A stretch of DNA of 21,347 nt, taken from positions 1 to 21,347 of the IMG/VR virus record IMGVR_UViG_3300049425_000014; one strand, 5' to 3'. This document shows positions 4,608 to 20,795 of the stretch, one piece after another (positions within the stretch are counted from its first letter, which is position 1; every line of letters begins with the position of its first letter). The stretch is from a virus. Made by a program: the position numbers and the translations under genes. The notes beneath the pieces are model-generated. The model was given only the letters and a program-made list of their open reading frames with translations, was not told the DNA's origin and ran no database searches.

Positions 4608-4994
4608 GGGGCTGCATTGGTTTCGACGTGGGTTCGGACGCGGTGTGGTGCATGTAGAGCTGAATGTGCTCTTAAATCAGATTCAAACAAACTAACTGCA
4701 AACGACGAACGTTTCGCACTCGCTGCTTAATTGCCAGTGAGCTTTACAACAGCAGGCCGATGGGCTGGGCAAGGGGTTTCTAAAGCAATTTAGGCGCTCC
4801 CGGCTGTAAAGATAATTTCATCGGCTGGCTCTGGGCTGGGTACCTTAACCCGGGGCAAGACAATAGGGTACTGGCGTCTTGTATAGCGTGTGGCTGCGCG
4901 ATACAAGTGGCGAGACTCAAATCAGACCACTAAACATGTAGATCTGCCCGAACAAGGCTTGCGGACGGGGGTTCAATTCCCCCCAGCTCCACCA
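4608..4994 (+). ncRNA. ssrA: tmRNA (ssrA)
   Basis: Transfer-messenger RNA rescues stalled ribosomes and tags the nascent peptide for proteolysis. The 5' end GGGGCTGCATTGG pairs with the 3' acceptor strand CAGCTCC ahead of the encoded CCA (4992-4994). The T-arm carries GGTTCAATTCC. The mRNA-like part starts with the resume codon GCA at 4698 and encodes ANDERFALAA, ending with TAA at 4728-4730; this is a betaproteobacterial-type tag. Pseudoknot-forming GC blocks follow. It is in one piece, not the permuted two-piece form of some other bacteria. Its 3' end is a common integration site for mobile elements, and foreign-looking genes begin after the terminator. The antisense frames over the 3' end (GGIEPPSAS-type peptides) are well-known false ORFs. 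Confidence 0.97.
4698..4730 (+). other. tmRNA proteolysis-tag reading frame
   Basis: The resume codon GCA is followed by codons for NDERFALAA and TAA. The hydrophobic ALAA end is the ClpXP/ClpAP recognition signal known from other tmRNAs. Confidence 0.93.
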
Positions 4995-5457: not shown

Positions 5458-6564
5458 ATGCCACTAGATGATGAAATTGCCTTAGCAAGACGTGAAATAG
5501 TGTCGGATGGCTACGATATGTCTATAGGTGAGTTGATCAATTTGTATAAAGACAATGAGATAAGAATTCACCCCGAATTTCAAAGACTTTTTCGTTGGGA
5601 TCCGACTCGCAAGACGCGGTTCATCGAGTCGATACTCCTTGGCCTTCCCTTGCCTCCCATTTTCGTATATCAAGATGCGGATGGCATCTGGGAGCTAATT
5701 GATGGCCTTCAAAGACTGTCAACAATCTTTGAATTTGTTGGAGTGCTCCAGAACGACGCTGGCGCACTACGACCCCCGACTGCGCTCGAAGGCACACGCT
5801 TTCTTCCCAGCTTAGCTAATAAAAAATGGGCTTCCATATCTGACGAAGCTGGCGACGGAATCGGAAGTTCGCAGCAGTTGCAAATTAAACGTGCGCGCAT
5901 GCGGGTTGAAATTCTTAAACAAGAGAGTGATCCGCAAGCTAAGTATGAACTGTTTCAACGATTGAATACTGGTGGTGACAATCTCTCAGAGCAAGAAATC
6001 AGGAATTGTGTTGGCGTGATGCTCAACTCGCCTTTCCAAAAATGGCTTGTCGAGTTGTCCGATGTGCCCGAATTCCGACGTACCATCAGCCAGACAGACG
6101 TTGCAATTGAGCGTCAAGTTCAAGTTGAGCTAGTTCTACGTTTTTTCGCATTTAGGCACGTCGCCTATAAATCCGGCCTTGATGTACATGAATATCTTGA
6201 TGATGCATTAATAAAAATTGCAACCAGCAAGGAATTTAATTCCAAGGCAGAAAAGGATATTTTTCTCAGAACATTTGTTCTTCTTAGTGATGCGATGGGT
6301 GAATCTGCTTTCAAACGATGGAACGGTAATGAATTTGGGGGTAAGTTCCTGATGAGCGTCTTTGAGGTGGTTGCAAACGGTGTGTCACAGAACATTAATG
6401 CCATTACTGAACTTGGCGACACCAAGGCTCAGGAGTTTGTACGTTCGAAGTGTATTTCGCTGTGGGAAAACGAGATCTTTGCACGGTTTTCAGGCTCTGG
6501 CGTTCGTGGTACGAGCAGGTTACCAAACTTGCTGCCGTTGGCGGGGCCATTTTTTCAACCGTGA
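5458..6564 (+). CDS. DUF262 (GmrS-like, ParB-fold) protein
   Basis: This 368-residue protein carries the DUF262 fold, the nucleotide-dependent ParB/sulfiredoxin-like domain of the GmrSD type IV restriction enzyme and related defence proteins. Visible signatures are FQRLFRW (41-47), FIESILLGLPLPPIFVYQ (55-72), the catalytic-type IDGLQRLSTI (81-90) and FQRLNTGGDNLSEQEIRN (166-183). The remaining half is helical and lacks the HNH-containing DUF1524 domain that pairs with DUF262 in full GmrSD, so a nuclease partner may be encoded separately. GGAG at 5447-5450, seven bases before the ATG, supports the start. The stop overlaps the next gene's GTG (GTGA). DUF262 genes next to HEPN genes are a known arrangement of predicted conflict systems; an anti-phage or toxin-antitoxin role is inferred. 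Base composition is visibly more AT-rich than the genes to the right. Confidence 0.85.
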   Translation: MPLDDEIALARREIVSDGYDMSIGELINLYKDNEIRIHPEFQRLFRWDPTRKTRFIESILLGLPLPPIFVYQDADGIWELIDGLQRLSTIFEFVGVLQNDAGALRPPTALEGTRFLPSLANKKWASISDEAGDGIGSSQQLQIKRARMRVEILKQESDPQAKYELFQRLNTGGDNLSEQEIRNCVGVMLNSPFQKWLVELSDVPEFRRTISQTDVAIERQVQVELVLRFFAFRHVAYKSGLDVHEYLDDALIKIATSKEFNSKAEKDIFLRTFVLLSDAMGESAFKRWNGNEFGGKFLMSVFEVVANGVSQNINAITELGDTKAQEFVRSKCISLWENEIFARFSGSGVRGTSRLPNLLPLAGPFFQP

Positions 6565-7247
6565 GCAAAATACGATCACTCACTCAGCTTCAAGATAGCT
6601 TGGACAAGGGCTATGGCTGGAGGTTGAAAGAGATTGCTGATTTAAAAACCACAGTCAAGGGGAGGTCCTTCCTTGGCCAGTCTACGATAATTCGAGCCGG
6701 GGTACCACTCTTGTACGCGCATTGGGAGGGTTTCATAAAGCAAACATCACAAGACTATTTGAATTATGTATCTTGTCAACGAATGACTTATGGCGACCTA
6801 GCGAGTTGTTTTGTTGTATTCGGTGCAAAGAAGCATCTAGGAAGCATAACGGGATCAAAAAAAGCAATAATTAATATTGAGGCCGTTGATTTTTTTAGAC
6901 GGTGCGCTTTTGAACGAGCAGACCTTATGCTTTCCAGTGCGATTGATACTAAATCAAACCTCAATTCTGAAATCTTTGAGAATATAGCGCTTTCAATTGG
7001 TGTTCCGGTTGGTTCGTACGATGCGTATTACAACTTGATTGATGAGTCGCTTCTGGCGCGCCGCAACAAGATCGCTCATGGTGAATACCTAGATTTAGAT
7101 GCAGATGACTTTAGAGGACTAGCAGATGAAATCCTTAAATTGTTGCGTATGTTCAAAACTGATATCGAGAATTTGGCGTCGATGAGTGCATTCAAAGCTG
7201 TGAGGAAACCAGTGCCGTTTGACTCAATTAGAGATAGCCCTTTGTGA
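6561..7247 (+). CDS. HEPN-domain protein, MAE_28990-like
   Basis: This 228-residue all-helical protein looks like the MAE_28990/MAE_18760 branch of HEPN proteins, which are metal-independent RNases in many toxin and abortive-infection systems. The key motif is Arg168-NKIA-His173 (Rx4H) in LLARRNKIAHGEY, and the N-terminal helix pair carries LYAHWEGFIKQT (51-62), also typical. I start it at the GTG of the GTGA overlap with the DUF262 stop (6561); longer open frames run into the upstream gene. The C-terminus overlaps the next gene in the same way. In family terms DUF262 and HEPN partners form a two-component defence module. The HEPN protein would be the RNA-cleaving effector and DUF262 the sensor or regulator, which is inference. 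Catalytic residues appear intact. Confidence 0.8.
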   Translation: MSKIRSLTQLQDSLDKGYGWRLKEIADLKTTVKGRSFLGQSTIIRAGVPLLYAHWEGFIKQTSQDYLNYVSCQRMTYGDLASCFVVFGAKKHLGSITGSKKAIINIEAVDFFRRCAFERADLMLSSAIDTKSNLNSEIFENIALSIGVPVGSYDAYYNLIDESLLARRNKIAHGEYLDLDADDFRGLADEILKLLRMFKTDIENLASMSAFKAVRKPVPFDSIRDSPL

Positions 7248-7876
7248 AAACCGCAGCCGAACTTGAACCCTTATTCAAAAGCTCTCTCGAATTGAGGGAC
7301 TGGATCGCGCGCCATCAGAATGGTCTTGAAATCAACTCTGAAAATTCAGTTAGGGTGCCTGGCGCTTTGTTTGACTTGGCCATCGAGTATCAAGTCGGCA
7401 TCGTACATCTGTCTTTAGCAAGGATCTACGGGCCTGCATTCGCATTGATTCGCGCACAGTTTGAGGCCTTTGTCAGGGGCACCTGGTTGCGGCTTTGTGC
7501 GACACCGGAGGAACTCGAAAAATTCATTGACTCCGACAAGATAGAACCAAAGATGTGGCAACTGTTGCTGGCTATTGAGTCACACCCCGACTTCTCAGAC
7601 AAAGTGCTCTCTTCTTTGCATAACAACGTCTGGAAATCCATGAATAGTTACACGCACGCTGGCATGCTTCAAGTGGCTCGACGAATGAAGCCCAGATCCA
7701 TTGAGCCCAATTACGATTCGGCAGAGGTGGCCGAGGTCATCCGTGCTTCTGGCTATTTCGCACTTTTGGCGTTGAATCAAATCGCACAGATGGCCGATTC
7801 ACATGAGGTGGTTACAAAAATTCACGACCTCTTGGACGGTACTGCGAAAGTTCTGTCGGAATCACACAAACCCTGA
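7244..7876 (+). CDS. DUF6988-like helical protein
   Basis: This 210-residue, mostly helical cytoplasmic protein resembles the uncharacterised DUF6988 family by its pattern of conserved residues: AFALIRAQFEAFVRGTWL (65-82), with Arg70, Glu74 and Arg78 on one helical face; EKFIDSDKIEPKMW (92-105); NSYTHAG with His138 (134-140); and IEPNY (153-157). The spacing of an Arg-rich helix and a later His-containing helix recalls HEPN/DUF5677 proteins, so a second HEPN-type subunit or an antitoxin-like partner is possible; this is speculative. It starts at GTG 7244 in a GTGA overlap with the HEPN gene, making a three-gene translationally coupled operon. The function of the family is not known to me. Confidence 0.65.
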   Translation: MKTAAELEPLFKSSLELRDWIARHQNGLEINSENSVRVPGALFDLAIEYQVGIVHLSLARIYGPAFALIRAQFEAFVRGTWLRLCATPEELEKFIDSDKIEPKMWQLLLAIESHPDFSDKVLSSLHNNVWKSMNSYTHAGMLQVARRMKPRSIEPNYDSAEVAEVIRASGYFALLALNQIAQMADSHEVVTKIHDLLDGTAKVLSESHKP

Positions 7877-8299: not shown

Positions 8300-9178
8300 C
8301 TAGGCGTGAAGGCTCTGTCCTAGGTAGTCCCGGACTTGGAACAGATTTAGCGAGAACTTCGACGCGTCCTCGGGGCGCACGACGATAATCAATTTGTTGG
8401 AGAACGCGCGCTGGCTGCAGGCGTCGGTGAAGGACTGAGCGATGCGTTCGATCATCTTCTTCCGAGGATACGCGACACGTCCGCGTCCCGTGCCCATCAA
8501 CGGCATAACTATGTCACCGACTTCAGCCTTAGATGCAAGGTTGATCCACAGTTTTTCAAGCGCCTCGTCAATCATCTTCAAGTCTGACGAAGCGTTACCG
8601 TAATCGTCCATGTGCGCCATTGCCACAAGGTAAAAATTCTTGTTGTGCGCGCTCACTCGAGCGACAGTGCCAATAGGATATTCCTTCTTCTTGCCAGGGC
8701 GTTTGTCGTTGATGGTGAACTGTTCCCTCGAAAGCGAAGCTTCGATTTGACGATCAATCTCCGTTGTTTGACCGTTGAAGTAGTTGGTAGCCAACTGCCC
8801 CTGCAAGCTATTTACAGCGATTAGCCCCGACGACATGTCCGTATCAAAGGTTGAGTTTGTACTGATAATCACTTCGCCAGGGATCTTAAATAGGTCGCCA
8901 ATCAGGACTTCGACAGCAAAGTCCTTTTGAGGAATCTTATAACTGACACGTGAAAGGGGCCTGCGAGTAGACAGCACATAGATCAGCGCAAGCACGACCA
9001 AGATGATTAACCCGTAGTATCTGTACTGGTCCTTCTTGTAGATATTGAAGGCATCGGCTAAGTCGACGCAAAGGTACAAGATGCCCACTACAGCGAAGAA
9101 CTTACCAATCGCTTCGCCGGAGAACAGTGCGTAGCGCCAATAGGCTCGCGTCAAAATCGACTCGAAAAAGTACCTCAT
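8300..9178 (-). CDS. thsA: Thoeris effector ThsA, type II (two TM + Macro domain)
   Basis: This 292-residue protein combines two membrane helices (about 25-44 and 54-71) with a C-terminal Macro domain of the ThsA type. Key segments are VLIGDLFKIPGEVIISTNSTFDTD (split at about 91-114), a PIGTV strand (168-172), FYLVAMAHMDD (182-192) and the glycine-rich ligand loop PLMGTGRGRV (226-235). In type II Thoeris the Macro domain binds a TIR-made ADP-ribose derivative (histidine-ADPR) and the membrane part is thought to damage the membrane, killing the infected cell. There is no SIR2 or SLOG domain, so it is not type I. It starts at ATG 9178, overlapping the thsB stop (ATGA), so the two are co-translated from thsB. 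The domain call is confident; the type II assignment rests on architecture and pairing. Confidence 0.83.
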   Translation of the reverse strand: MRYFFESILTRAYWRYALFSGEAIGKFFAVVGILYLCVDLADAFNIYKKDQYRYYGLIILVVLALIYVLSTRRPLSRVSYKIPQKDFAVEVLIGDLFKIPGEVIISTNSTFDTDMSSGLIAVNSLQGQLATNYFNGQTTEIDRQIEASLSREQFTINDKRPGKKKEYPIGTVARVSAHNKNFYLVAMAHMDDYGNASSDLKMIDEALEKLWINLASKAEVGDIVMPLMGTGRGRVAYPRKKMIERIAQSFTDACSQRAFSNKLIIVVRPEDASKFSLNLFQVRDYLGQSLHA

Positions 9179-9675
9179 AGTCCGAGTTGCCTGTAGACAT
9201 CGTCGGTGTAGTGGCGGTCCCCAGTTGTGCCCGCGCTGCGTAGCCGGTGGAACTCGTCTGGCCAGTGCTCCATCGCATGTTCAATGATGTTGTGATTGAA
9301 CGAGGTGTACACCACCAGTTGATCCCGGATCGTCGGCGGGCAACGGTCATCCATCTGCCTGCTCCCGTTCAAGTTCACGCCGATGACGGGCAGACCAAGC
9401 CGCAAAGCCACCTCCAGTTCCCACTTCACGAACTTGGTCAAGTATCTAGTGCTTTCTCCGATAAGCACCACGAGCAATTTAGAGTTTGCAAAGCGTTCCC
9501 GAAGCTGGCGCTTTATGCTTTCTTCTTGGCTCGAATCCCGAGCCGTATTCTGGTCGTGAGCGTTGTGGAAATTTAGCGAAAAGCCGTCATGCGCCTTCCA
9601 AGCCGTCATAAGACGGTAGTAGTGCATGTCGTTATCGCCGTCGAAGGCGATGTAAGTCTTATTTCGGTATGCCAT
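9175..9675 (-). CDS. thsB: Thoeris TIR-like NADase ThsB (MTH538/DUF1863 type)
   Basis: This 166-residue protein is a stand-alone TIR-like domain of the MTH538/DUF1863 class, the sensor and signal-producing part of Thoeris. It begins with the conserved strand KTYIAFDGDND (6-16), has the loop SLNFHNAHD (33-41), then SQEESIKRQLRERFANSKLLVVLIGEST (49-76, split here at helix and strand). The catalytic glutamate is likely Glu86 in KFVKWELEVAL (Glu88 also lies on that helix). The enzyme is expected to sense phage and use NAD+ to make the small molecule that activates ThsA. It is the first gene of a two-gene leftward operon overlapping thsA by four bases. The ribosome site upstream of 9675 is not obvious. 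Alternative: another MTH538-type TIR protein outside Thoeris, which the Macro-domain partner makes unlikely. Confidence 0.85.
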   Translation of the reverse strand: MAYRNKTYIAFDGDNDMHYYRLMTAWKAHDGFSLNFHNAHDQNTARDSSQEESIKRQLRERFANSKLLVVLIGESTRYLTKFVKWELEVALRLGLPVIGVNLNGSRQMDDRCPPTIRDQLVVYTSFNHNIIEHAMEHWPDEFHRLRSAGTTGDRHYTDDVYRQLGL

Positions 9676-12430: not shown

Positions 12431-12527
12431 TGGGTAGCGTTCCGTGTTGACAAACTTGTGTAGCCAAAATTGTCTTTAAGGGCTGCCTCCAAGGCCAGCA
12501 GGGAGTTGCGGGCGGTTGTGGGTTGGT

Positions 12528-12544
12528 GCGGGTTCCTGCGGGTT
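12528..12544 (+). repeat. 17-bp direct repeat, right copy
   Basis: GCGGGTTCCTGCGGGTT is identical to 5054-5070. It sits in the divergent region between the recombinase operon and the repressor gene, about 100 bases from the first recombinase-operon codon, where an attachment site of a serine recombinase could lie. Further loosely related GGGTT units precede it (12510-12527). Confidence 0.6.
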
Positions 12545-12557
12545 AACGCCTAAAATC

Positions 12558-12581
12558 ATCGCAAAAAAGGTTTTTTGCGAT
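12558..12581. promoter_or_regulatory. Perfect 24-bp palindrome in the divergent control region
   Basis: Arms ATCGCAAAAAA (12558-12568) and TTTTTTGCGAT (12571-12581) are separated by GG. The two-base centre is too tight for a good RNA hairpin, so a dimeric protein site is more likely. It lies just upstream of the repressor promoter and downstream of the divergent operon's control region, suited to coordinate both. A related A6/T6 palindrome lies at 15646-15663. Confidence 0.65.
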
Positions 12582-12597
12582 TGAAAACACAAGATCA

Positions 12598-12626
12598 TTG
12601 CAAAGTGAACGATCGTTCTCTACAAT
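12598..12626 (+). promoter_or_regulatory. Promoter of the S24 repressor operon
   Basis: TTGCAA (12598-12603) and TACAAT (12621-12626) are spaced by 17 bases, a good sigma70-type promoter. The predicted start of transcription falls at about 12632-12634, essentially on the GTG start codon at 12633, so the mRNA may be leaderless. Confidence 0.7.
12608..12619. promoter_or_regulatory. Operator-like palindrome GAACGATCGTTC
   Basis: This perfect 12-bp palindrome of form GAAC-N4-GTTC sits between the -35 and -10 of the repressor promoter. The form matches the LexA box known from Gram-positive bacteria rather than the CTGT-N8-ACAG of enterics. The position would block RNA polymerase, so autorepression by the adjacent LexA-like protein is the simplest reading. 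Confidence 0.65.
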
Positions 12627-12632
12627 GATTCC

Positions 12633-13220
12633 GTGAAGAAAACAATCAACGATCTCGAACACCTGGCCACCCTGCAGGACTATTACGCCCAGCACCGGGT
12701 GTTGCCCTCGTACACCCGGCTGATGTCGCTCCTGGGGTTCGCCTCCAAGTCCGGCATCAAAAAGGTGCTGGAGCGGCTGGAGGCTGCGGGCATGCTGGAG
12801 CGCACCTCGGATGGCGACTGGTCCCCGACCGATCGCTTCTTTGACCGCTCAATTGCCAACCTGCCGGTTGCCGCTGGCATGCCCTTGCCAACCGCAGACG
12901 AGGGTGGCGAGCAGATGACGCTGGACCGCTTTTTGATCGCTCGACCCGCCAACACGGTGCTGGTGCGGGTCAAAGGCGACTCAATGATCAATGCCGGTAT
13001 CCACAGCGGGGATCTGGCTGTGGTTGAGCGGCGCAGCCAGGCCAACCCCGGAGAGGTGGTGGTCGCGGTCATTGATGATGAATTCACACTAAAAACACTT
13101 GGACGAGACAAAGACGGATATCACCTGCTTCCCGCCAACCCGGATTTCCCCACCATCCGGCCCAGCGGCAAACTTGAGATTTTTGGGGTTTTGGTTGGCC
13201 TTGTGCGCAAATACACATGA
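12633..13220 (+). CDS. LexA/CI-like S24-peptidase repressor
   Basis: This 195-residue self-cleaving repressor has an N-terminal winged-helix DNA-binding region of LexA type (about 1-65, LPSYTRLMSLLGFASKSG) and a C-terminal S24 peptidase domain. The scissile pair is probably Ala81-Gly82 in PVAAGMP. The catalytic dyad is Ser117 (VKGDSMINAG) and Lys154 (EFTLKTLGR). It should keep the element silent and be cleaved after RecA activation by DNA damage. The start is a GTG at 12633 without a ribosome site, lying at the predicted transcription start. The promoter carries a GAAC-N4-GTTC palindrome. The product is probably an element-borne repressor rather than the host LexA, given its place among mobile-element genes. 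It is followed 12 bases later by two unknown genes. Confidence 0.9.
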   Translation: MKKTINDLEHLATLQDYYAQHRVLPSYTRLMSLLGFASKSGIKKVLERLEAAGMLERTSDGDWSPTDRFFDRSIANLPVAAGMPLPTADEGGEQMTLDRFLIARPANTVLVRVKGDSMINAGIHSGDLAVVERRSQANPGEVVVAVIDDEFTLKTLGRDKDGYHLLPANPDFPTIRPSGKLEIFGVLVGLVRKYT

Positions 13221-13232
13221 GGCAAACCAACA

Positions 13233-14474
13233 ATGAAAATATTCAATCCTGCACATTTCCTGCGTCACATTTCGATGCCAACTCTGCGCGAATTCACCGA
13301 AGCGCACACCCTGGGCCAAAGCCTGGTCATTGACTGGAGCCTGGCGCAGGAACTGCTGCCTACCGAGGTCAATGATGCGGTCGCGTTGCTTGACGCTTCC
13401 ATGCAGGGTGCCGAGATGACGCAAGCCGAGCGTGAGTTGGTTGAATACAAGTTGCACCTCTGGCACGACGACCTGCGCCGCGCACACCTGATGTCCAACG
13501 ATCTCTCCATCCAAGAGTTTCAGACCGCATGCGCCGGTGACCGCGAGGTGCAGGAAGCATTTGCCAGCCGAGATGCCCGCGAGCAGTCGCTGTGGATGCT
13601 GACCTTTCGGGACACCGCGTTTCGCAACGCTGAAATGCACATCGCCTTTCAGGCCAAGTCCAATGGCAAGTACTGGAAAAAGCATCGCATCCAGCCAGGG
13701 CTCGATCCGATGCAAGACCGCAGCAAACTCGATGCCTTTTGCCACGAGGTGGCTAAGCTTTACAAGAGCGTGGGCGGTGGCGACGGCACCCACATTGAGG
13801 TCAGCAAACGGGCCGCCGACGGCAGCGTTCAACTGACCATCTACATCGAAGGCCCAGTCACGGCGATCGCACATTTTTCTGAGAATAGTTTCAAGCGCAT
13901 CAACACCCGCATCGCGCTGGAGACCGCGTTGGTATACCAGCCGTCGACCGGCTTCATTGAAACCATCGTCAAGGGTGGAGCCAAGAATCATGGCGCAGTG
14001 CTGGAACTCTTTGGCAAGCACGTGGTGGAGACGGCCATCAAGCCTGAAGAAATTGAGAAGACCCGCTACAAACTCAACGCCTTGCGCGACGGCATGATGG
14101 AGCCGTTTGAGGACTGGTCACCTCACGGCGTCGAGAAGGTTCGCCTGCGCCGGGCACGCTTCACGCCCATGGGTCGAACCGGCATTTCGTTTCAGGTGGA
14201 AGCACCATCGGCTAAAGACCAGGACGATGCGATCCGGCTGGCGCTGACGGGACTCAAAGTGCATCACTCTTTTGAGTCGGAATACAACATGAGCAGTGCC
14301 TCGGTCATCGTCTACACACTGGCTACCGAAAGCCGCAAGGCCGGACATTTCAGCTTTGATATTTCTGCCACAGGGTCTTCGACCATCAAAAACTTGGCTG
14401 ATAAAAACCAGCCTACGGCACTTGCTGTATTGCGTTCGCTGAACGTGATCGAAGCAGAAGAGGTTGCGGCGTGA
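13233..14474 (+). CDS. Unrecognised 413-residue protein coupled to the repressor
   Basis: I do not recognise a family. The protein is 413 residues, soluble, with no signal peptide or membrane segment. It opens with MKIFNPAHFLRHISMPTLRE, has a charged helical region to about residue 150, then a mixed alpha/beta part with ITIY-like strands (SVQLTIYIEGPVTAIAHF, about 190-207) and a C-terminal alpha/beta segment (FEDWSPHGVEKVRLRRARFT onward). It starts 12 bases after the repressor stop and ends in a GTGA overlap with the next gene, so the three are one operon. Codon pattern matches the adjacent phage-like genes. The place between a lysogeny-type repressor and a terminator is where prophages carry lysogenic-conversion or superinfection-exclusion genes. 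A defence role is a guess from position only. Confidence 0.75.
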   Translation: MKIFNPAHFLRHISMPTLREFTEAHTLGQSLVIDWSLAQELLPTEVNDAVALLDASMQGAEMTQAERELVEYKLHLWHDDLRRAHLMSNDLSIQEFQTACAGDREVQEAFASRDAREQSLWMLTFRDTAFRNAEMHIAFQAKSNGKYWKKHRIQPGLDPMQDRSKLDAFCHEVAKLYKSVGGGDGTHIEVSKRAADGSVQLTIYIEGPVTAIAHFSENSFKRINTRIALETALVYQPSTGFIETIVKGGAKNHGAVLELFGKHVVETAIKPEEIEKTRYKLNALRDGMMEPFEDWSPHGVEKVRLRRARFTPMGRTGISFQVEAPSAKDQDDAIRLALTGLKVHHSFESEYNMSSASVIVYTLATESRKAGHFSFDISATGSSTIKNLADKNQPTALAVLRSLNVIEAEEVAA

Positions 14475-15436
14475 GTCTTGCGCAAATCAGTGCCACCGGC
14501 GTGTTGTGCCAACTCCTTGAGCGAGAAAAGCCCGAGGTCAACGGCATGACTCTGTTGGGTGGTGAATATGGGAACGCCGGACGAGATTTGTTGCGTGAAC
14601 GATTGCTTGTCGTTGGCGCGTCACTCTCTCACGTGACGTGCCCTGAGTGTGGTGTGGAATTGGCGCGCGTCGTTCGTGATCTAGCCCATGAAAACATCCT
14701 GCTCTACTGCGATGAATGCGGCGAAGTCACCAGCCCTCGGTCATTGCAAGAGACCTACAAGGTGAGCCTGCCCAAGTTCATCGACCGGCTCATGCTCGGG
14801 TTGGGGACCCAGCCCAGCGCGAAGAAAGAAGTTGCCACCGAGGTGGCCTGGCGCATCGGGGTCACGGAGCCTGTGCGCGGCAGGCCGCTGACCTGGTACT
14901 TTGCTCGCCACCTGCATGACCACAAGTCGGCGCAGCGGCTGGTGGAAACCATTCGGCAGGACCAGGCGCACAAGTCAGCGAAGGTGCTCACCAGCAGCGC
15001 CTTGCCCCTGCCCGAGGGCTCGCCCCTGAGTGACTTTGATGTGGTTCATCTCAGTGATATCGCCCGCATCTCGCAAAGCAAATTTGAGTTCTTCAATGAC
15101 CGTATGACCGTGCCCGTTGCCGCTCCGGTTGAAGACAGCCAGTTTCAAACTACCCTGCGCCAGGTACGCACGGAGGGCAAGGCGCGCGTGGATGGCGTTG
15201 ACTATGCGCTGGAGCCACGGCAGAAAGATTTATTGCTGGCGCTGATAGCCACCCGGCACCACGAACTGGAAAACGCACAGTTGCGCACGGCATGCGGATC
15301 ACAGGCTAATTCGTTCTCACCCACCAAAGTGTTCGATCGTAATCCCGTGGTCTACAAGCGGTTCATCAAGTACCAGCCCAGTGACGGTATTTACGCCTTG
15401 CAAATACCGGAGGAAGACCGTGACTGGCTGACCTGA
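14471..15436 (+). CDS. Unrecognised protein with a zinc ribbon and possible C-terminal winged helix
   Basis: This 321-residue protein has an evident zinc-binding site, CPEC (57-60) and CDEC (80-83). A helical middle region includes TWYFARHLHDHK. The C-terminal segment from about 233 (ARVDGVDYALEPRQKDLLLAL to SDGIYAL) looks like an OmpR-type winged helix by its strand-helix pattern. I know no family with this order. It would suit a DNA-binding or transcription role. It starts with GTG inside a GTGA overlap with the 413-residue gene and ends shortly before a hairpin terminator, closing the repressor operon. The two proteins probably act together. The zinc site is seen directly; the winged helix is inferred from sequence pattern. 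Confidence 0.75.
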   Translation: MSLAQISATGVLCQLLEREKPEVNGMTLLGGEYGNAGRDLLRERLLVVGASLSHVTCPECGVELARVVRDLAHENILLYCDECGEVTSPRSLQETYKVSLPKFIDRLMLGLGTQPSAKKEVATEVAWRIGVTEPVRGRPLTWYFARHLHDHKSAQRLVETIRQDQAHKSAKVLTSSALPLPEGSPLSDFDVVHLSDIARISQSKFEFFNDRMTVPVAAPVEDSQFQTTLRQVRTEGKARVDGVDYALEPRQKDLLLALIATRHHELENAQLRTACGSQANSFSPTKVFDRNPVVYKRFIKYQPSDGIYALQIPEEDRDWLT

Positions 15437-15494: not shown

Positions 15495-15530
15495 AAACCC
15501 GGCGCTCACCTGTACGAGCCCGGGTTTTTT
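15495..15530 (+). terminator. Rho-independent terminator closing the repressor operon
   Basis: AAACCCGG (15495-15502) pairs with CCGGGTTT (15520-15527) across a 17-base loop, and the T-run extends to 15530. It separates the repressor operon from the replication operon to the right. Confidence 0.75.
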
Positions 15531-15555: not shown

Positions 15556-15593
15556 TGAGGAATGCCGCTGAGGAGTCTGAGGAACGGCTTGAG
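15556..15593 (+). repeat. Irregular TGAGGA repeats
   Basis: TGAGGAA (15556), TGAGGAG (15569), TGAGGAA (15578) and a partial TGAG (15590) are spaced 13, 9 and 12 bases. They lie in the control region ahead of the replication operon and could be binding sites; the spacing is too uneven to call iterons. Confidence 0.3.
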
Positions 15594-15645
15594 TAATCCC
15601 GATTGTTGAAATTCATCTCACTGGTTAGCGAGGCAAACGAGCTTC

Positions 15646-15682: not shown

Positions 15683-15901
15683 TTGCAATCCGCAGAAAAG
15701 GTCAAGCACCTCAACCAAACCCAGTTAGCAGAGCGCTGGGACGTCGCTGAAGCGACGCTAGAAAGATGGCGCAGCGACGGCATCGGTCCGGTCTTCATGA
15801 AGATCCAGGGCCGCGTGTTGTACCGCGTCGAAGACATCGAAGCATTCGAGTCCGACAGCTTGCGCCAAAGCACCTCAAGTGCAGTGGGAGGTGCAGCATG
15901 A
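15683..15901 (+). CDS. AlpA/excisionase-like helix-turn-helix protein
   Basis: This 72-residue protein has a MerR-type/AlpA-like winged helix: NQTQLAERWDVAEATLERWR (11-30), followed by the wing GPVFMKIQGRVLYRVEDIEAF (36-56, split at the Gly). Such proteins regulate prophage genes or direct excision. The start is TTG at 15683, supported by AAGGAG at 15671-15676 with a six-base spacer; no ATG fits. It is the first gene of the rightward replication operon, and its stop overlaps the next ATG (ATGA). The DNA-binding fold is confident. Whether it is an excision factor for the serine recombinase or a transcription activator is open. Confidence 0.82.
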   Translation: MQSAEKVKHLNQTQLAERWDVAEATLERWRSDGIGPVFMKIQGRVLYRVEDIEAFESDSLRQSTSSAVGGAA

Positions 15902-16383
15902 GCACGCTACCGCTTGATCATCCCGATCAAATTTTGTCCATTCCCGTGGGCACATTGGCTGAGCAGTCCGGCGAGTCGCTGTTCCAGCTTAAAAACAATG
16001 CGGCCGACTTTCTGGTGATGGCCAAAACCATCGTCGAGCACATCGACCGCGCGCTGGATTTGAAGTACTCAGCGCAGGCCCACCAACTGCGCCTGGCTGC
16101 AGGCAAAGACACCGGCGTTGTTCATTTCGATGACGGCCGCGTGCACATCACCGCTGACCTTCCTAAAAAGATCGAGTGGGACCAAGCCCGCCTCGCTGAC
16201 ATCACGCAGCGCATTGCCGCCAATGGCGACAACCCGGCCGAGTACGTCGAGATCAGCTACCGCGTCTCGGAAACCAAGTTCAACGCGTGGCCCGAATCGC
16301 TCAAGAGCTCGTTCTCTGCGGCCCGCACCCTCAAAACCGGCAAGCCGGGCTTTCGTCTCGCACTTCAAGGAGAAAACAAATGA
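15898..16383 (+). CDS. Phage-like hypothetical protein ahead of the Sak4-like ATPase
   Basis: This 161-residue protein starts at the ATG of an ATGA overlap. Upstream in-frame starts would intrude into the AlpA-like gene. It has a predicted helical N-terminal half (about 20-70) and a beta-rich stretch VVHFDDGRVHITADLPKKIE (74-93). A C-terminal segment with VEISYRVSETKFNAWP follows (about 118-133). Proteins of this type precede AAA_24/Sak4 ATPases in many phage recombination modules; I do not know a function. Overlap with the ATPase gene (ATGA at 16380) suggests matched expression and perhaps a physical partner in recombination. Confidence 0.72.
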   Translation: MSTLPLDHPDQILSIPVGTLAEQSGESLFQLKNNAADFLVMAKTIVEHIDRALDLKYSAQAHQLRLAAGKDTGVVHFDDGRVHITADLPKKIEWDQARLADITQRIAANGDNPAEYVEISYRVSETKFNAWPESLKSSFSAARTLKTGKPGFRLALQGENK

Positions 16384-17312
16384 GCCTTCCCATCATCACC
16401 GCTGACCAGCGGTTGGCCGAACGCCGTGGCGTCAAAGGCGTTCTCGTCGGCAAAAGCGGCATCGGCAAAACCTCGCAGCTGTGGACCCTCAAACCCAGCG
16501 CCACTTTGTTCTTTGACCTGGAAGCGGGCGACCTCGCAGTAGAAGGCTGGGCCGGTGACACGGTGCGCCCACGCACATGGCAGGAGTGCCGCGACTTTGC
16601 CGTCTTCATTGGCGGCCCCAACCCGGCGCTGCGAGATGACCAGCCCTATAGCCAGGCGCACTTTGATGCGGTGTGCCAGCGCTTTGGCCAGGCCTCGGCC
16701 ATGGACAAGTACGACACCGTATTCGTGGACTCGATCACCGTGGCTGGGCGTCTGTGCCTTCAGTGGTGCAAAGGTCAGCCCCAAGCCTTTTCAGAAAAAA
16801 CCGGCAAGCCCGATAGCCGGGGTGCTTACGGTTTGATGGGCCAGGAAATGATCGGCTGGCTCACCCACTTGCAGCACACCCGTCGCAAGAACGTGTGGTT
16901 CGTCGGCATCTTGAACGAAGCGCTGGACGACTTCAACCGCCGCGTTTTCTCTCTTCAGGTTGACGGTTCCAAAACCGGACTGGAATTGCCCGGCATCGTC
17001 GATGAGGTGGTCACGCTGACCGAACTCAAAAGTGATGACGGCAACAGCTACCGCGCCTTTGTATGCCACACCCTCAACAACTGGGGCTATCCGGCCAAAG
17101 ACCGTTCAGGTCGCCTTGACGCCATTGAGGAGCCCGACCTGGGCCGCCTCATGGAAAAGATTGCTGGTCCGGCCAAACCCGCACCAGAACGGCTTGACTT
17201 TGCGCGGCCCGCCAGCAGCGTTGCGCCTTTGTCAGAAGCCAGCACCTCAAGTGAAGACGTCACAGACACCAGTTTCGACCCCACTTCCTTCAACCCCACT
17301 CAGGAGTCCTGA
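16380..17312 (+). CDS. AAA_24 / Sak4-like recombination ATPase
   Basis: This 310-residue phage-type nucleotide-binding protein of the AAA_24 group is related to Sak4 single-strand annealing proteins with a RecA-like core. Walker A is GKSGIGKT (24-31); Walker B is TVFVDS (113-118, Asp117). The conserved GAYGLMGQEMIGWL follows at about 143-156. From about 270 the chain is a low-complexity Ser/Thr/Pro/acidic tail, like that of single-strand binding partners, ending in FNPTQES. It would promote annealing or strand exchange of element DNA with the SSB-like protein encoded two bases downstream. An open frame upstream exists, but the overlapping ATG at 16380 with AAGGAG nearby is the evident start. 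ATPase identity is sure; Sak4 subtype is likely. Confidence 0.83.
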   Translation: MSLPIITADQRLAERRGVKGVLVGKSGIGKTSQLWTLKPSATLFFDLEAGDLAVEGWAGDTVRPRTWQECRDFAVFIGGPNPALRDDQPYSQAHFDAVCQRFGQASAMDKYDTVFVDSITVAGRLCLQWCKGQPQAFSEKTGKPDSRGAYGLMGQEMIGWLTHLQHTRRKNVWFVGILNEALDDFNRRVFSLQVDGSKTGLELPGIVDEVVTLTELKSDDGNSYRAFVCHTLNNWGYPAKDRSGRLDAIEEPDLGRLMEKIAGPAKPAPERLDFARPASSVAPLSEASTSSEDVTDTSFDPTSFNPTQES

Positions 17313-17314
17313 AC

Positions 17315-17929
17315 ATGACTTACTTCGATTTTAATTCTGCGTCCGAGCAAACCTCTTTTGACCTGATCCCTAAAGCCACGCTGGTGCGTGTGCGCATGAC
17401 CATCAAACCCGGCGGCTTCGACGATGCCTCGCAAGGCTGGACTGGCGGCTACGCCACCCGAAGTACCAGCACCGGCTCGGTGTACCTCAACTGCGAATTC
17501 GTGGTGACCGATGGTGAGTTTGCACGCCGCAAGATGTGGTCACTCATTGGTTTGCACAGTCCCAAGGGACCTGAGTGGGCCAACATGGGCCGCACCATGG
17601 TGAAGGCCATCCTGAACTCGGCGCGCAACGTCCAGCCGGGTGACAACAGCCAAGCCGCCCAGAACGCCCGGCGTATCAGCGGCTTTGCGGATCTGGATGG
17701 CATTGAGTTCCTGGGCAGGGTGGACTGGGACAAAGACCAGAACGGCCAGGACAAGGCGGTCATCAAGGCGGCAGTGACGCCGGATCACAAGGACTACGCC
17801 GCTGCCATGGGTGCACCGCGAACAGCAGCGCCAGCGACTGCATCTGCCGGTGTTGCGCCCGCAGCCAATGCCTATGCCCAAGCCACAGGTCGTGCGCCGG
17901 TTCCCGGTCGTCCGAGCTGGGCACAGTAA
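17315..17929 (+). CDS. Probable ssDNA-binding partner (DUF669-like)
   Basis: This 204-residue protein is encoded directly after the Sak4-like ATPase, with AGGAG eight bases before the ATG. It has a beta-rich N-terminal part with strands ATLVRVRMTIKPGG (21-34) and VYLNCEFVVTDGEFARRKMW (57-76). A helical stretch NMGRTMVKAILNSA follows, and a flexible Ala/Pro-rich tail from about 168. The arrangement fits the phage DUF669-type proteins paired with AAA_24 ATPases, which are believed to bind single-stranded DNA; this function is inferred. It ends 15 bases before the helicase gene. Confidence 0.65.
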   Translation: MTYFDFNSASEQTSFDLIPKATLVRVRMTIKPGGFDDASQGWTGGYATRSTSTGSVYLNCEFVVTDGEFARRKMWSLIGLHSPKGPEWANMGRTMVKAILNSARNVQPGDNSQAAQNARRISGFADLDGIEFLGRVDWDKDQNGQDKAVIKAAVTPDHKDYAAAMGAPRTAAPATASAGVAPAANAYAQATGRAPVPGRPSWAQ

Positions 17930-17944
17930 GCGGGGATCACAGCC

Positions 17945-19639
17945 ATGATGCTTCGACCCCGCCAATCCCTGCTGGTCCAACGTACCCTGGACGCGCTCGC
18001 TCTGCATGGCAACACGCTGGCTGTCGCGCCCACCGGGTCTGGCAAGACCATCATGTTGTCGGCGGTGGTCGGCAAGATATTGTCTGAGCCGGATGCCAAG
18101 GCCTGCGTGCTGGCACACCGCACCGAACTGACCGGTCAGAACCGGGCCAAGTTCTCTCGCGTCAATCCTGGCTTGAGCACCTCGGTGTTTGATGCCCAGG
18201 AAAAGTCTTGGGCGGGTGATGCCACTTTTGCGATGGTGCAAACCCTCTCGCGGCCCATGAACCTTGCGCAGATGCCCACGCTTGATTTGCTGGTCATCGA
18301 TGAGGCGCACCACGCGTCCTCACCCAGCTACCGGGTGGTCATCGACCAGGTGTTGGCCAAGAATTCCAAGGCTGCTATCTGCGGCCTTACCGCCACTCCC
18401 AACCGGGGTGACGGCAAAGGCCTGCGCGAGGTGTTCTCCAACGTGGCCGATCAGATCAGTCTGGGCGAGATGATCGCAAGCGGCCATTTGGTCTCACCGC
18501 GAACCTTTGTGATTGATGTTGGCGCGCAGCAGGCACTGCAGAACGTGCGCCGCACAGCGATCGACTTCGACATGGAGCAGGTGGCCACGATTCTCAATAA
18601 ATCGCTGATCACTGAAGCGGTGATTGCGCACTGGAAGCAAAAAGCGGCTGACCGCAAGACCATTGTCTTTTGTTCCACCGTGGCACACGCGAAAAGTGTC
18701 TGCGAGGCGTTTGTGGCTGCCGGTGTGCAATCTGTGCTGATCCATGGCGAGTTGTCGCCGGTTGAACGCCAGACAAGGCTGCAAGCATTTGAGACCGGCA
18801 GCGCCCAGGTGGTGGTCAATGTGGCGGTGCTCACCGAGGGCTACGACTACACACCTACATCTTGTGTGGTGTTGCTGCGCCCGAGTTCCTACAAGTCCAC
18901 CTTCATTCAGATGGTTGGTCGTGGTCTTCGCACAGTGGACCCGCAGGAGTTTCCCGGCGTCATCAAGTCCGATTGCGTGGTGTTGGATTTCGGTACAGCC
19001 AGTCTGATGCATGGCGCGCTGGAGCAAGAGGTCAACCTTGATGGCCACACTCACGAGGGTGAAGCACCCACCAAAGAGTGTCCGGAGTGCGGCGCCACCG
19101 TGCCGCTGTCATGCATGGAGTGCCCGTTGTGCGGCCACATCTGGGAGCGCCAGCCAGAGGATACCGGCGCACTCTCGGATTTCATCATGAGTGAAATAGA
19201 TCTGCTCAAACGCTCGAATTTCCGGTGGTGCGATCTGTTTGGTTGTGACGACGCCTTGATGGCCACGGGCTTTACCGCCTGGGGCGGCGTGTTTTTCCTG
19301 AACGGCCGCTGGCATGCCATCGGTGGTGCCAAGTCGCAGCGTCCCGCTTTGCTTGCTGTGGGCGAGCGCACCGTGTGCATGGCGCGCGCTGATGACTGGC
19401 TCAACGACCATGAGTCGGCCGACTCGGCGCACAAGACCCGGCGCTGGCTCAACGAGCCGCCCACGGTCAAGCAACTGGTCTACCTGCCAGAGGCGATGCG
19501 AACAGATTTCGGCATGACCCGCTACCAGGCCTCCGCTTTGTTGTCGTTTCAGTTCAACCGCAAAGAGATTCAGCGCCTGGTCACCGCTGCCAATGACGCG
19601 CATCACAGCAGTCACTCCCAAGTTTTGGAGGCGGCTTGA
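17945..19639 (+). CDS. SF2 DEAD/DEAH-box helicase with C-terminal zinc ribbon
   Basis: This 564-residue superfamily 2 helicase of the UvrB/type III restriction-like group is common in phage replication modules. Motif I is APTGSGKT (28-35), motif II DEAH (119-122), motif III GLTATP (147-152) and motif VI QMVGRGLR (322-329). A zinc ribbon follows with CPEC (379-382) and CPLC (393-396). The C-terminal 150 residues are specific to this subgroup and end with HSQVLEAA. It would unwind DNA for replication or recombination of the element. It starts with a double Met at 17945; the stop overlaps the next gene's TTG start. All visible catalytic motifs look intact. Confidence 0.9.
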   Translation: MMLRPRQSLLVQRTLDALALHGNTLAVAPTGSGKTIMLSAVVGKILSEPDAKACVLAHRTELTGQNRAKFSRVNPGLSTSVFDAQEKSWAGDATFAMVQTLSRPMNLAQMPTLDLLVIDEAHHASSPSYRVVIDQVLAKNSKAAICGLTATPNRGDGKGLREVFSNVADQISLGEMIASGHLVSPRTFVIDVGAQQALQNVRRTAIDFDMEQVATILNKSLITEAVIAHWKQKAADRKTIVFCSTVAHAKSVCEAFVAAGVQSVLIHGELSPVERQTRLQAFETGSAQVVVNVAVLTEGYDYTPTSCVVLLRPSSYKSTFIQMVGRGLRTVDPQEFPGVIKSDCVVLDFGTASLMHGALEQEVNLDGHTHEGEAPTKECPECGATVPLSCMECPLCGHIWERQPEDTGALSDFIMSEIDLLKRSNFRWCDLFGCDDALMATGFTAWGGVFFLNGRWHAIGGAKSQRPALLAVGERTVCMARADDWLNDHESADSAHKTRRWLNEPPTVKQLVYLPEAMRTDFGMTRYQASALLSFQFNRKEIQRLVTAANDAHHSSHSQVLEAA

Positions 19640-20040
19640 AGTGCGCCGTCTGTGCCCGCCAGGCCAAAGGCTACGGCTGGTTTAACCCCAGCCTCAAACG
19701 CAGCGACCCCGCTCGCTACTCAGACCAATGGGTGTTTTGCTCGCGCCGCTGCCAAAACGCCTTCTCAACACTCATGAATAAAACGGAGGGACAAATGATT
19801 GATCCAAGTGAAATGGAAACAACGGCCATGTGCGCGTGCCTGCAGCCACTGGGCGAGTTCGTAGGCTCAATCGGCATGGATCGCCCGCTGGCCAGTTACA
19901 GCCGCATTGAGGTGCTGACACTGATTGACGTCGTGGTGACGGCTTACCAAGGCCAGATGACGGCTGAACACGAACGCATGGCTGCGCGCGACCGGGCGTT
20001 TTTGCAAGAGCGCCTGAGCTTGCAGAAGGGTCGTGTGTGA
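19636..20040 (+). CDS. Small cysteine-rich protein, DUF6511-like
   Basis: This 134-residue protein starts at a TTG (19636) in a TTGA overlap with the helicase stop, with a GGAGG-like site just upstream. Its N-terminal part has a treble-clef-like set of cysteines: CAVC (3-6) and CSRRC (35-39), and a further CAC at 66-68. The central region is hydrophobic and helical (IEVLTLIDVVVTAYQ). It resembles the small DUF6511 proteins of phage replication modules; its function is unknown to me. It overlaps the nuclease gene's ATG by one base. Confidence 0.7.
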   Translation: MKCAVCARQAKGYGWFNPSLKRSDPARYSDQWVFCSRRCQNAFSTLMNKTEGQMIDPSEMETTAMCACLQPLGEFVGSIGMDRPLASYSRIEVLTLIDVVVTAYQGQMTAEHERMAARDRAFLQERLSLQKGRV

Positions 20041-20795
20041 TGCTTGACTTCAATGCCCGCCCCAAAATTCAGGAACAGATCAGCCAGCTCATTGATGCAG
20101 CTTTAACTCGCGAGCGCGATGGCCAAACACCACGCGACTACCTGGGGGCATCGCGCTTGGGCGTCTCGTGCGAGCGCGCGCTGCAATATGAGTACACGCA
20201 CACACCAGTGGACGACGGCCGTGATTTCTCCGGCCGCTTGCTGCGCATCTTTGAGGTAGGCCACACGCTGGAAGACCTGGCCATCCGCTGGTTGCGCATG
20301 GCTGGGTTTGACCTGTACACGCGCAAAGTCCAGGGCGGTCAGTTCGGCTTTTCCGTGGCAGGTGGACGTATCCGGGGCCACGTCGACGGGATCCTGAATA
20401 CCGGACCTGCCGATCTGGGCGTGAGCTACCCGGCGCTGTGGGAGTTCAAGACCATGAACGACAAATCCTGGCGCGACACCGTCAAACACGGGGTGGCTAA
20501 GTCCAAGCCGGTCTATGCCGCACAGGTTGCGGTCTACCAGGCCTACATGGAAGCCAGCATTCCGGGCATATCTGCCAACCCGGCGCTTTTTACGGCCATC
20601 AACAAAGACACCCAGGAAATCTGGTTCGAGTTGCTGCCCTTTGACGGTGGGCTGGCGCAGCGCATGTCGGACCGCGCCGTGCGCGTGATCACCGCCACCA
20701 GCGCAAGCGAGGTCTTGCCGCGCTTTGCCACCACACCTACCCACATGGAGTGCAAGTTCTGCGCGTGGCAGGACCGCTGCTGGGGGACTCAATGA
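20040..20795 (+). CDS. Cas4-like PD-(D/E)XK nuclease with Fe-S cysteines
   Basis: This 251-residue nuclease is of the RecB/Cas4 type. PD-(D/E)XK residues are Asp116 (GHVDG) and Glu135-Phe-Lys137 (LWEFK), with the QxxxY-type motif at Gln162 and Tyr166. Four cysteines are placed as in Cas4/AddB iron-sulfur nucleases: Cys44 (GVSCERA), then Cys238, Cys241 and Cys247 (ECKFCAWQDRCW). It should process DNA ends and supply single strands for the Sak4-like protein. I use the ATG at 20040 (TGATG junction); a GTG one codon earlier is possible. No CRISPR array or other cas gene is seen, so this is a phage-type recombination nuclease rather than part of a CRISPR system. It overlaps the primase gene by ATGA. 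Confidence 0.88.
   Translation: MLDFNARPKIQEQISQLIDAALTRERDGQTPRDYLGASRLGVSCERALQYEYTHTPVDDGRDFSGRLLRIFEVGHTLEDLAIRWLRMAGFDLYTRKVQGGQFGFSVAGGRIRGHVDGILNTGPADLGVSYPALWEFKTMNDKSWRDTVKHGVAKSKPVYAAQVAVYQAYMEASIPGISANPALFTAINKDTQEIWFELLPFDGGLAQRMSDRAVRVITATSASEVLPRFATTPTHMECKFCAWQDRCWGTQ

Follow-up and report, generated by a model that had tools for sequence, protein, structure and literature searches.

The 21,347-base window analysed here, which is an entire IMG/VR record, carries an operon encoding an S24-type repressor followed by two proteins of 413 and 321 residues (hereafter 413 and 321), and this operon on balance probably forms a damage-released relay running from the repressor through 413-321 to the early operon. 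413 and 321 constitute a conserved module carried mostly by serine-recombinase prophages of Pseudomonadota, and 321 very probably binds, judging from its covariation with the DNA, a four-repeat array that precedes the early operon. The array is a new finding of this analysis. To the right of the tmRNA gene, where the junction between host and element is the probable attachment site, the element contains, in this order, defence-like cargo, a serine recombinase with small partners (minus strand), S24-413-321 (plus strand) and the early operon (plus strand). The coordinates of the features are listed in Table 1. The arrangement of the three genes given in the initial annotation agreed exactly with the ORF calls in gap and overlap, all three ORFs being on the plus strand, and the statement that neither protein belongs to a known family was upheld: 413 generated no hit in Pfam or NCBIfam and matched only PHROG 37634 (function unknown), and 321 generated only sub-threshold zinc ribbon hits.

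Table 1. Features of the window and of the 413 protein (positions are those of the window unless given as residues).
Feature	Position	Strand	Details
tmRNA gene	4608-4994	+	host genes end here; element to the right
Further defence-like cargo	5458-7876	+	DUF262-type protein (matches NsnA, PD-T4-2_A), unnamed 265-aa ORF, PDC-S52 match
Thoeris-like pair	8300-9675	-	macro-domain ThsA (PADLOC 2e-151) and TIR-like ThsB (8e-77); part of the cargo, flanked by the tmRNA gene and the serine recombinase
Direct repeats upstream of S24	12507-12544		three TGCGGGTT-like repeats in 10-bp steps
Inverted repeat upstream of S24	12558-12581		perfect, 11 bp, ATCGCAAAAAA/TTTTTTGCGAT
Promoter-like site of S24-413-321	12598-12626	+	TTGCAA, 17 bp, TACAAT; consensus scan
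LexA/SOS-like operator palindrome	12607-12618	n/a	GAACGATCGTTC, between -35 and -10 of the S24-413-321 promoter
S24 repressor gene	12633-13220	+	GTG start
413-aa gene	13233-14474	+	ATG start; 12-base gap after the S24 gene
321-aa gene	14471-15436	+	GTG start; GTGA overlap with the 413 gene
CPEC...CDEC codons of 321	14639-14719	+	residues 57-83, putative zinc ligands; homologue alignment
Winged-helix domain of 321	15143-15433	+	residues 225-321; AF2 model, structure matches
Asp289 codon of 321	15335-15337	+	covaries with repeat-unit bases 4-5
Terminator-like hairpin and T-run	15495-15530	+	AAACCCGG/CCGGGTTT; closes the S24-413-321 unit
Four-repeat array	15556-15597	+	TGAGGAAT (15556), TGAGGAGT (15569), TGAGGAAC (15578), TGAGTAAT (15590)
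Early-operon -35/-10 positions	15603-15630	+	conserved TTG (15603-15605), GGTTAGCG (15623-15630); alignment of 27 loci
Early operon	15683-20795	+	HTH_17/AlpA-like, phrog_2480, Sak4-like AAA_24, phrog_2300, helicase, DUF6511, Cas4-type exonuclease
RdgC/RexA/CENP-N-L fold, predicted	residues ~138-411 of 413		AF2 model and structure searches

Close homologues of 413 were found in 44 viral contigs and 21 genome loci, and homologues of 321 in 30 viral contigs. A sample of 398 Pseudomonadota genomes, searched with a broader profile, contained the 413 family in 29 cases (approximately 7%), and a 321-like gene was adjacent in nearly all of them. In a non-redundant set of 50 loci (413 proteins sharing < 85% identity, with downstream sequence present), the two genes were adjacent in 47. 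The others comprise one fusion into a single 724-aa protein (L180; 413 part 1e-37, 321 part 7e-15), one disrupted locus in which a 413 remnant is followed by apparent transposase genes, as read by eye (L171), and one locus with a truncated 413 (L154). The pair is obligate, as in no complete locus do 413 and 321 lie apart, the separation that the initial annotation had named as evidence against a joint system. Both genes are genuine, with conservation across a phylum at identities as low as approximately 20%, and replication genes accompany the pair in nearly all loci. In tblastn against named phage and plasmid records, 413 was matched in neither and 321 was unmatched in phages. PADLOC returned no defence-family match for the pair, the sole hit being a weak, partial PDC-S05 match of 321 (E 0.03), and sequence profiles searched against the PDB yielded nothing meaningful. 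Distant homologues of the pair in locus L128 (7451-9543, minus strand) lie directly upstream of a multiubiquitin-ThiF operon on the same strand and adjoin an integrase and a KfrA-like gene; the 321 homologue there has lost the cysteines of the putative zinc site.

Where 3 kb or more of upstream sequence was available (38 loci), the regulator neighbouring the pair was S24 in 16, ImmA/IrrE in 11 and WYL in 2, and at least one of the three was located within 5 kb in 29. The ImmA/IrrE peptidase was accompanied by an XRE-type regulator in the loci inspected. S24 genes run in the same direction as the pair, and ImmA/IrrE genes, where separate, mostly have the divergent orientation. The regulator beside the pair is exchangeable, and the S24 operon is one setting among several. 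The earlier description of the two proteins as locked into a repressor operon consequently holds for the clade of the window and not in general; of the S24-413-321 order, it is the 413-321 part that is conserved. Other SOS genes neighbour the pair in some loci (UmuC and RecA in L186, DinB in L176, UmuC in L079), those with RecA or UmuC being a minority, and in L178 (394-6518, minus strand) the pair occupies the middle of a prophage SOS cluster, S24-UmuC-413-321-XRE-RecA. In L073 (2833-5636), the genes after the pair of an S24-413-321 unit encode an S8 peptidase and an AAA ATPase, a second recombinase cassette flanks the unit, and array and early operon are absent.

The S24 protein generated a hit on Peptidase_S24 in Pfam (1e-26) and carries a LexA-like winged helix, the match to the LexA DNA-binding domain being slightly under the cut-off. 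Its cleavage site, Ala81-Gly82, as well as Ser117 and Lys154, were invariant among 44 aligned S24 sequences. The promoter-like site preceding the gene was the one match of the consensus scan, against 1.3 in shuffled sequences, and its support comes mainly from a conserved box within it. Of 40 distinct regions upstream of S24, 34 contain this box, GAACN4GTTC, without mismatch (shuffles: mean 0.2, maximum 2), and it is also kept upstream of S24 repressors merely 46-49% identical to that of the window. In two loci without S24 (L070 and L071), the box lies approximately 100 bp ahead of the 413 gene. S24 bound at the box should, from this arrangement, repress its own operon and release 413 and 321 once cleaved. 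As the window contains just one further GAACN4GTTC, at 6269 within a cargo gene, control of the early operon by S24 through the box is unlikely. TGCGGAA-like repeats recur upstream of S24 in relatives and do not obey the residue-289 code described below.

The model of 321 (AF2 pLDDT 89) comprises a Cys4 zinc-ribbon-like part, a central domain and a C-terminal winged helix of the OmpR/PhoB type. The CPEC and CDEC motifs reported previously are present, and the four cysteines (residues 57, 60, 80 and 83) are invariant in 62 close homologues; they are gone from many distant members, and the putative zinc ligands were therefore rejected as the defining mark of the family. The winged-helix-like C-terminus seen from the sequence was confirmed by the model, being assigned to the OmpR/PhoB type by Foldseek (E 0.05, prob 0.99) and aligning with YycF, CosR and ToxR at Z of approximately 7.7 (86-88 residues, rmsd 2.8-3.0). 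No receiver-domain match was obtained in Pfam. The maximum hydropathy of 1.06 gives 321 no membrane segment, so that it is predicted to be soluble, unlike RexB.

The terminator described as closing the unit was recovered as a terminator-like stem followed by a T-run; the scan is expected to give about four such matches by chance in the region, and a GC-rich stem with a T-run is found at the same place in most relatives. The array behind it consists of four 8-bp repeats spaced 13/9/12 bp, with a score of 39/48 against 21 at the next best place in the window. In relatives, the 13/9/12 geometry is exact, and the units vary between phages (TGAGGAA, TGGGGAA, TGTGGAA, TGCGGAA, TGCAGAA, TGCCGAA, TGCGTAA, TGTGTAA and TGAGTAA). 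The array is located 121-132 bp ahead of the first early gene even where several kilobases of cargo have been inserted after the 321 gene, and this constant distance indicates that it belongs to the early operon. In L078, L030 and L079, several kilobases of cargo lie exactly between the terminator end of the 321 gene and the array, which marks a cargo site. The alignment of 27 loci showed that the array abuts the conserved TTG and that GGTTRGCR follows at promoter distance, the -10 being poor, an arrangement that looks as at activator-dependent promoters. Several alphaproteobacterial relatives (L170, L173, L184, L188 and others) carry tandem arrays of other units in 9-12-bp steps at the same place, and many have none. 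Many distant relatives have no 13/9/12 array behind the 321 gene, and a tandem array above shuffles was found in only approximately 6 of 25. The AlpA-like protein was disfavoured as the reader of the array: some relatives with an array yielded no AlpA-like gene, so that the gene is dispensable for the array, and by eye its helix looks almost constant against a varying unit.

Residue 289 of 321 predicts bases 4-5 of the repeat unit in 25 of 25 non-redundant loci, where D or E occurs with GG, G or S with AG or CG, and Q, L or M with GT, the three unit classes having been defined after the residues had been seen. Among 1845 alignment columns taken from eight proteins encoded at the locus, no other is fully disjoint, and a disjoint column arose in none of 200 label shuffles, which ignore relatedness. 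The problem of shared descent is answered by two observations. On a tree from which 321 was left out, the class of the unit and that of the residue undergo seven changes each, in step. Furthermore, L037 and L040 share 93% identity in both 413 and Sak4, whereas their 321 proteins are 54% and 45% identical in two parts and their arrays differ; L040 shares its 321 type and array with L031, and 321 and array were, by these comparisons, swapped together. Residues 248 and 171 of 321 stood out in a first, smaller set and failed when seven more insert-bearing loci were included. For unit bases 3 and 8, disjoint columns were found only in S24, with few sequences, and were treated as chance. The residue-289 code would explain separate prophage switches within one cell.

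An array of four operator-like repeats would be just as compatible with repression or with the initiation of replication. In plasmid Rep/iteron systems, direct repeats are bound by a winged-helix protein, and by the same plan the array may represent replication-origin iterons, 321 being a winged-helix initiator, 413 a DNA-clamp helper, and induction still supplying 321. The distances between sites 1 and 3 (22 bp) and sites 2 and 4 (21 bp) are consistent with such an origin, as are the recombination and replication genes downstream, with which the pair travels in nearly all loci. We nevertheless regard an origin as unlikely, because the array stands after a terminator and directly before TTG/GGTTRGCR, at a constant distance from the early operon, where the promoter must be, and because the winged-helix matches of 321 are of the OmpR/PhoB type and not Rep, although a missing match does not exclude Rep. 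Activation is preferred to repression because the array is situated ahead of a weak promoter.

The model of 413 (AF2 pLDDT 82) had E. coli RdgC, CENP-N/Chl4 and CENP-L/Iml3 as its top PDB matches (Foldseek E 1.6e-5 to 1e-3, VIA Z 7.1-9.8). The match to RdgC reached Foldseek E 2.6e-5 (prob 1.0) and VIA Z 9.8 with rmsd 7.2 over 225 aligned residues, and those to the centromere proteins reached E 1.6e-5 (7pkn_N) and Z 9.1 with rmsd 3.0 over 113 residues (7bxt_M). The next unrelated family scored VIA Z 6.3, and no other family matched at comparable strength. Phage proteins annotated as RdgC were also among the best matches in BFVD, an independent library of viral models. By sequence, none of 56 homologues generated a hit in Pfam, and so none on RdgC PF04381, and hhalign against 25 RdgC sequences gave Prob 0.5%; likewise, 413 and its homologues did not match PHROG 12654 (RexA), and hhalign of 413 against RexA gave Prob 0.1%. 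Lambda RexA, which was assigned to the RdgC-fold group from its crystal structure (PMC11077077), is equally undetectable against RdgC by profile-profile comparison, so that these null results do not decide the relation. RexA was absent from the structure match lists of 413 (PDB and BFVD), an absence that carries no weight. The likeness of Iml3/Chl4 to RdgC has been remarked previously (PMC4080450). Taken together, 413 is predicted to be an RdgC-fold protein. A match to an ordinary structural or replication family, proposed earlier as an argument against a regulatory role, was found for neither protein by sequence, and the resemblance of 413 to RdgC, a recombination protein, is by structure only. 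The pair would add a second phage lineage with the RdgC/RexA/kinetochore fold beside an immunity repressor, which bears on the origin of the fold. For 413, we favour the role of a DNA-clamp partner; it may alternatively modulate RecA or have a RexA-like role.

In the RexA-like role, the pair would be a superinfection-exclusion system. This function, also suggested in the initial annotation, was not borne out and is kept in consideration by the fold of RexA and the place beside the repressor: lambda RexA has the RdgC fold in common with 413 and is likewise encoded directly behind the repressor gene (PMC11077077), RexA-type proteins function in prophage defence of P. putida (PMC12894663), and the L128 homologues neighbour a multiubiquitin-ThiF operon. 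Exclusion seems very unlikely, however, as 321 lacks a membrane segment and does not resemble RexB, the pair is oriented divergently to the repressor in ImmA/IrrE-type loci and stays with replication genes, and its specificity tracks the early-operon array, which is needless for exclusion. It is also quite improbable that 413 is an RdgC- or Hex-like RecA brake, targeted by 321 and limiting repressor cleavage or RecA activity in phage recombination, for although RdgC lowers RecA activities including LexA cleavage (PMC11077077), the Hex protein of phage 434, a product of the repressor mRNA, prevents repressor cleavage driven by RecA (PMC3564112), and SOS genes flank the pair in L178, L186, L176 and L079, this function leaves the array and the code unexplained, hosts carry their own RdgC, and RecA/UmuC neighbours are few.

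The relay that we prefer would operate as follows. In the lysogen, S24 would occupy GAACGATCGTTC between its own -35 and -10 and keep the S24-413-321 operon low. Upon DNA damage, active RecA would lead to self-cleavage of S24, and 413 and 321 would be made together. The winged helix of 321 would then dock on the array, with bases 4-5 of every repeat being read by residue 289, and 413, as an RdgC/RexA-fold DNA-binding partner, would ride with 321 or clamp the adjoining DNA. The 413:321 complex would finally switch on the early replication/recombination operon. The sequence basis for this relay is the conserved and once fused pair, the operator box in the shared promoter, the autocleavage residues of S24 and the covariation of 321 with the array, the last three of which also argue for a regulatory pair and for a damage-induced system, both proposed at the outset; RecA-driven cleavage, a physical 413:321 contact and activation in preference to repression are inferred. 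As the box is present only at the repressor's own promoter, bar the copy in the cargo gene, the relay is the simplest circuit and suggests how these temperate phages pass a DNA-damage signal to their replication genes. Against it, L073 keeps S24-413-321 without array or early operon. The relay would provide a function and a testable code for two gene families without a name in Pfam, NCBIfam or PADLOC. More broadly, and only tentatively, an RdgC/CENP-N-fold clamp (413) and a winged-helix reader (321) may form an obligate complex on the four-repeat array, a previously undescribed class of switch in which one residue sets the specificity, yielding private, non-cross-reacting switches, and whose common core is combined with sensors of the S24, ImmA/IrrE or WYL type in different members of the phylum.

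Among known systems, the PrtR-PrtN-P-box circuit of Pseudomonas pyocins has an autocleaving repressor that controls an activator, which acts at a conserved sequence of the main-operon promoter (PMC8609362). The operon in the window is similar in having a repressor box at the promoter of a candidate activator and putative activator sites at the target promoter, and differs in that two proteins (one with the RdgC fold, the other with an OmpR-type winged helix) would be released from one operon with the repressor and in that the target is the four-repeat array of a phage early operon. In the window and in S24-type loci, though not in ImmA-type loci, an RdgC-fold protein is predicted directly behind an autocleaving repressor, as in lambda cI-rexA-rexB (PMC11077077). 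Unlike RexA, 413 shows no detectable sequence relation and has an extra N-terminal helical part, and its partner is a soluble winged-helix protein in place of the membrane protein RexB; lambda rexA is made in the lysogen, whereas the promoter layout here implies that the repressor holds its operon down and does not activate it. RdgC (PF04381) is the best fold match of residues 138-411 of 413, without profile-profile similarity, and 413 differs from it in approximately 135 extra N-terminal residues, in its obligate partner and in residing in hosts that carry their own RdgC. CENP-N/Chl4 and CENP-L/Iml3 of the eukaryotic centromere have, in the structure comparison, the fold predicted for 413, and this likely reflects distant use of one DNA-binding fold by 413 and kinetochore proteins. 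PhoB binds direct repeats, namely two 11-bp repeats (PMC3978041). 321 resembles OmpR/PhoB-type factors in its predicted winged helix and in having direct repeats as putative target, and differs from them in lacking a receiver domain, in its N-terminal zinc-ribbon-like part and central domain, and in the number and 13/9/12 spacing of its four repeats.
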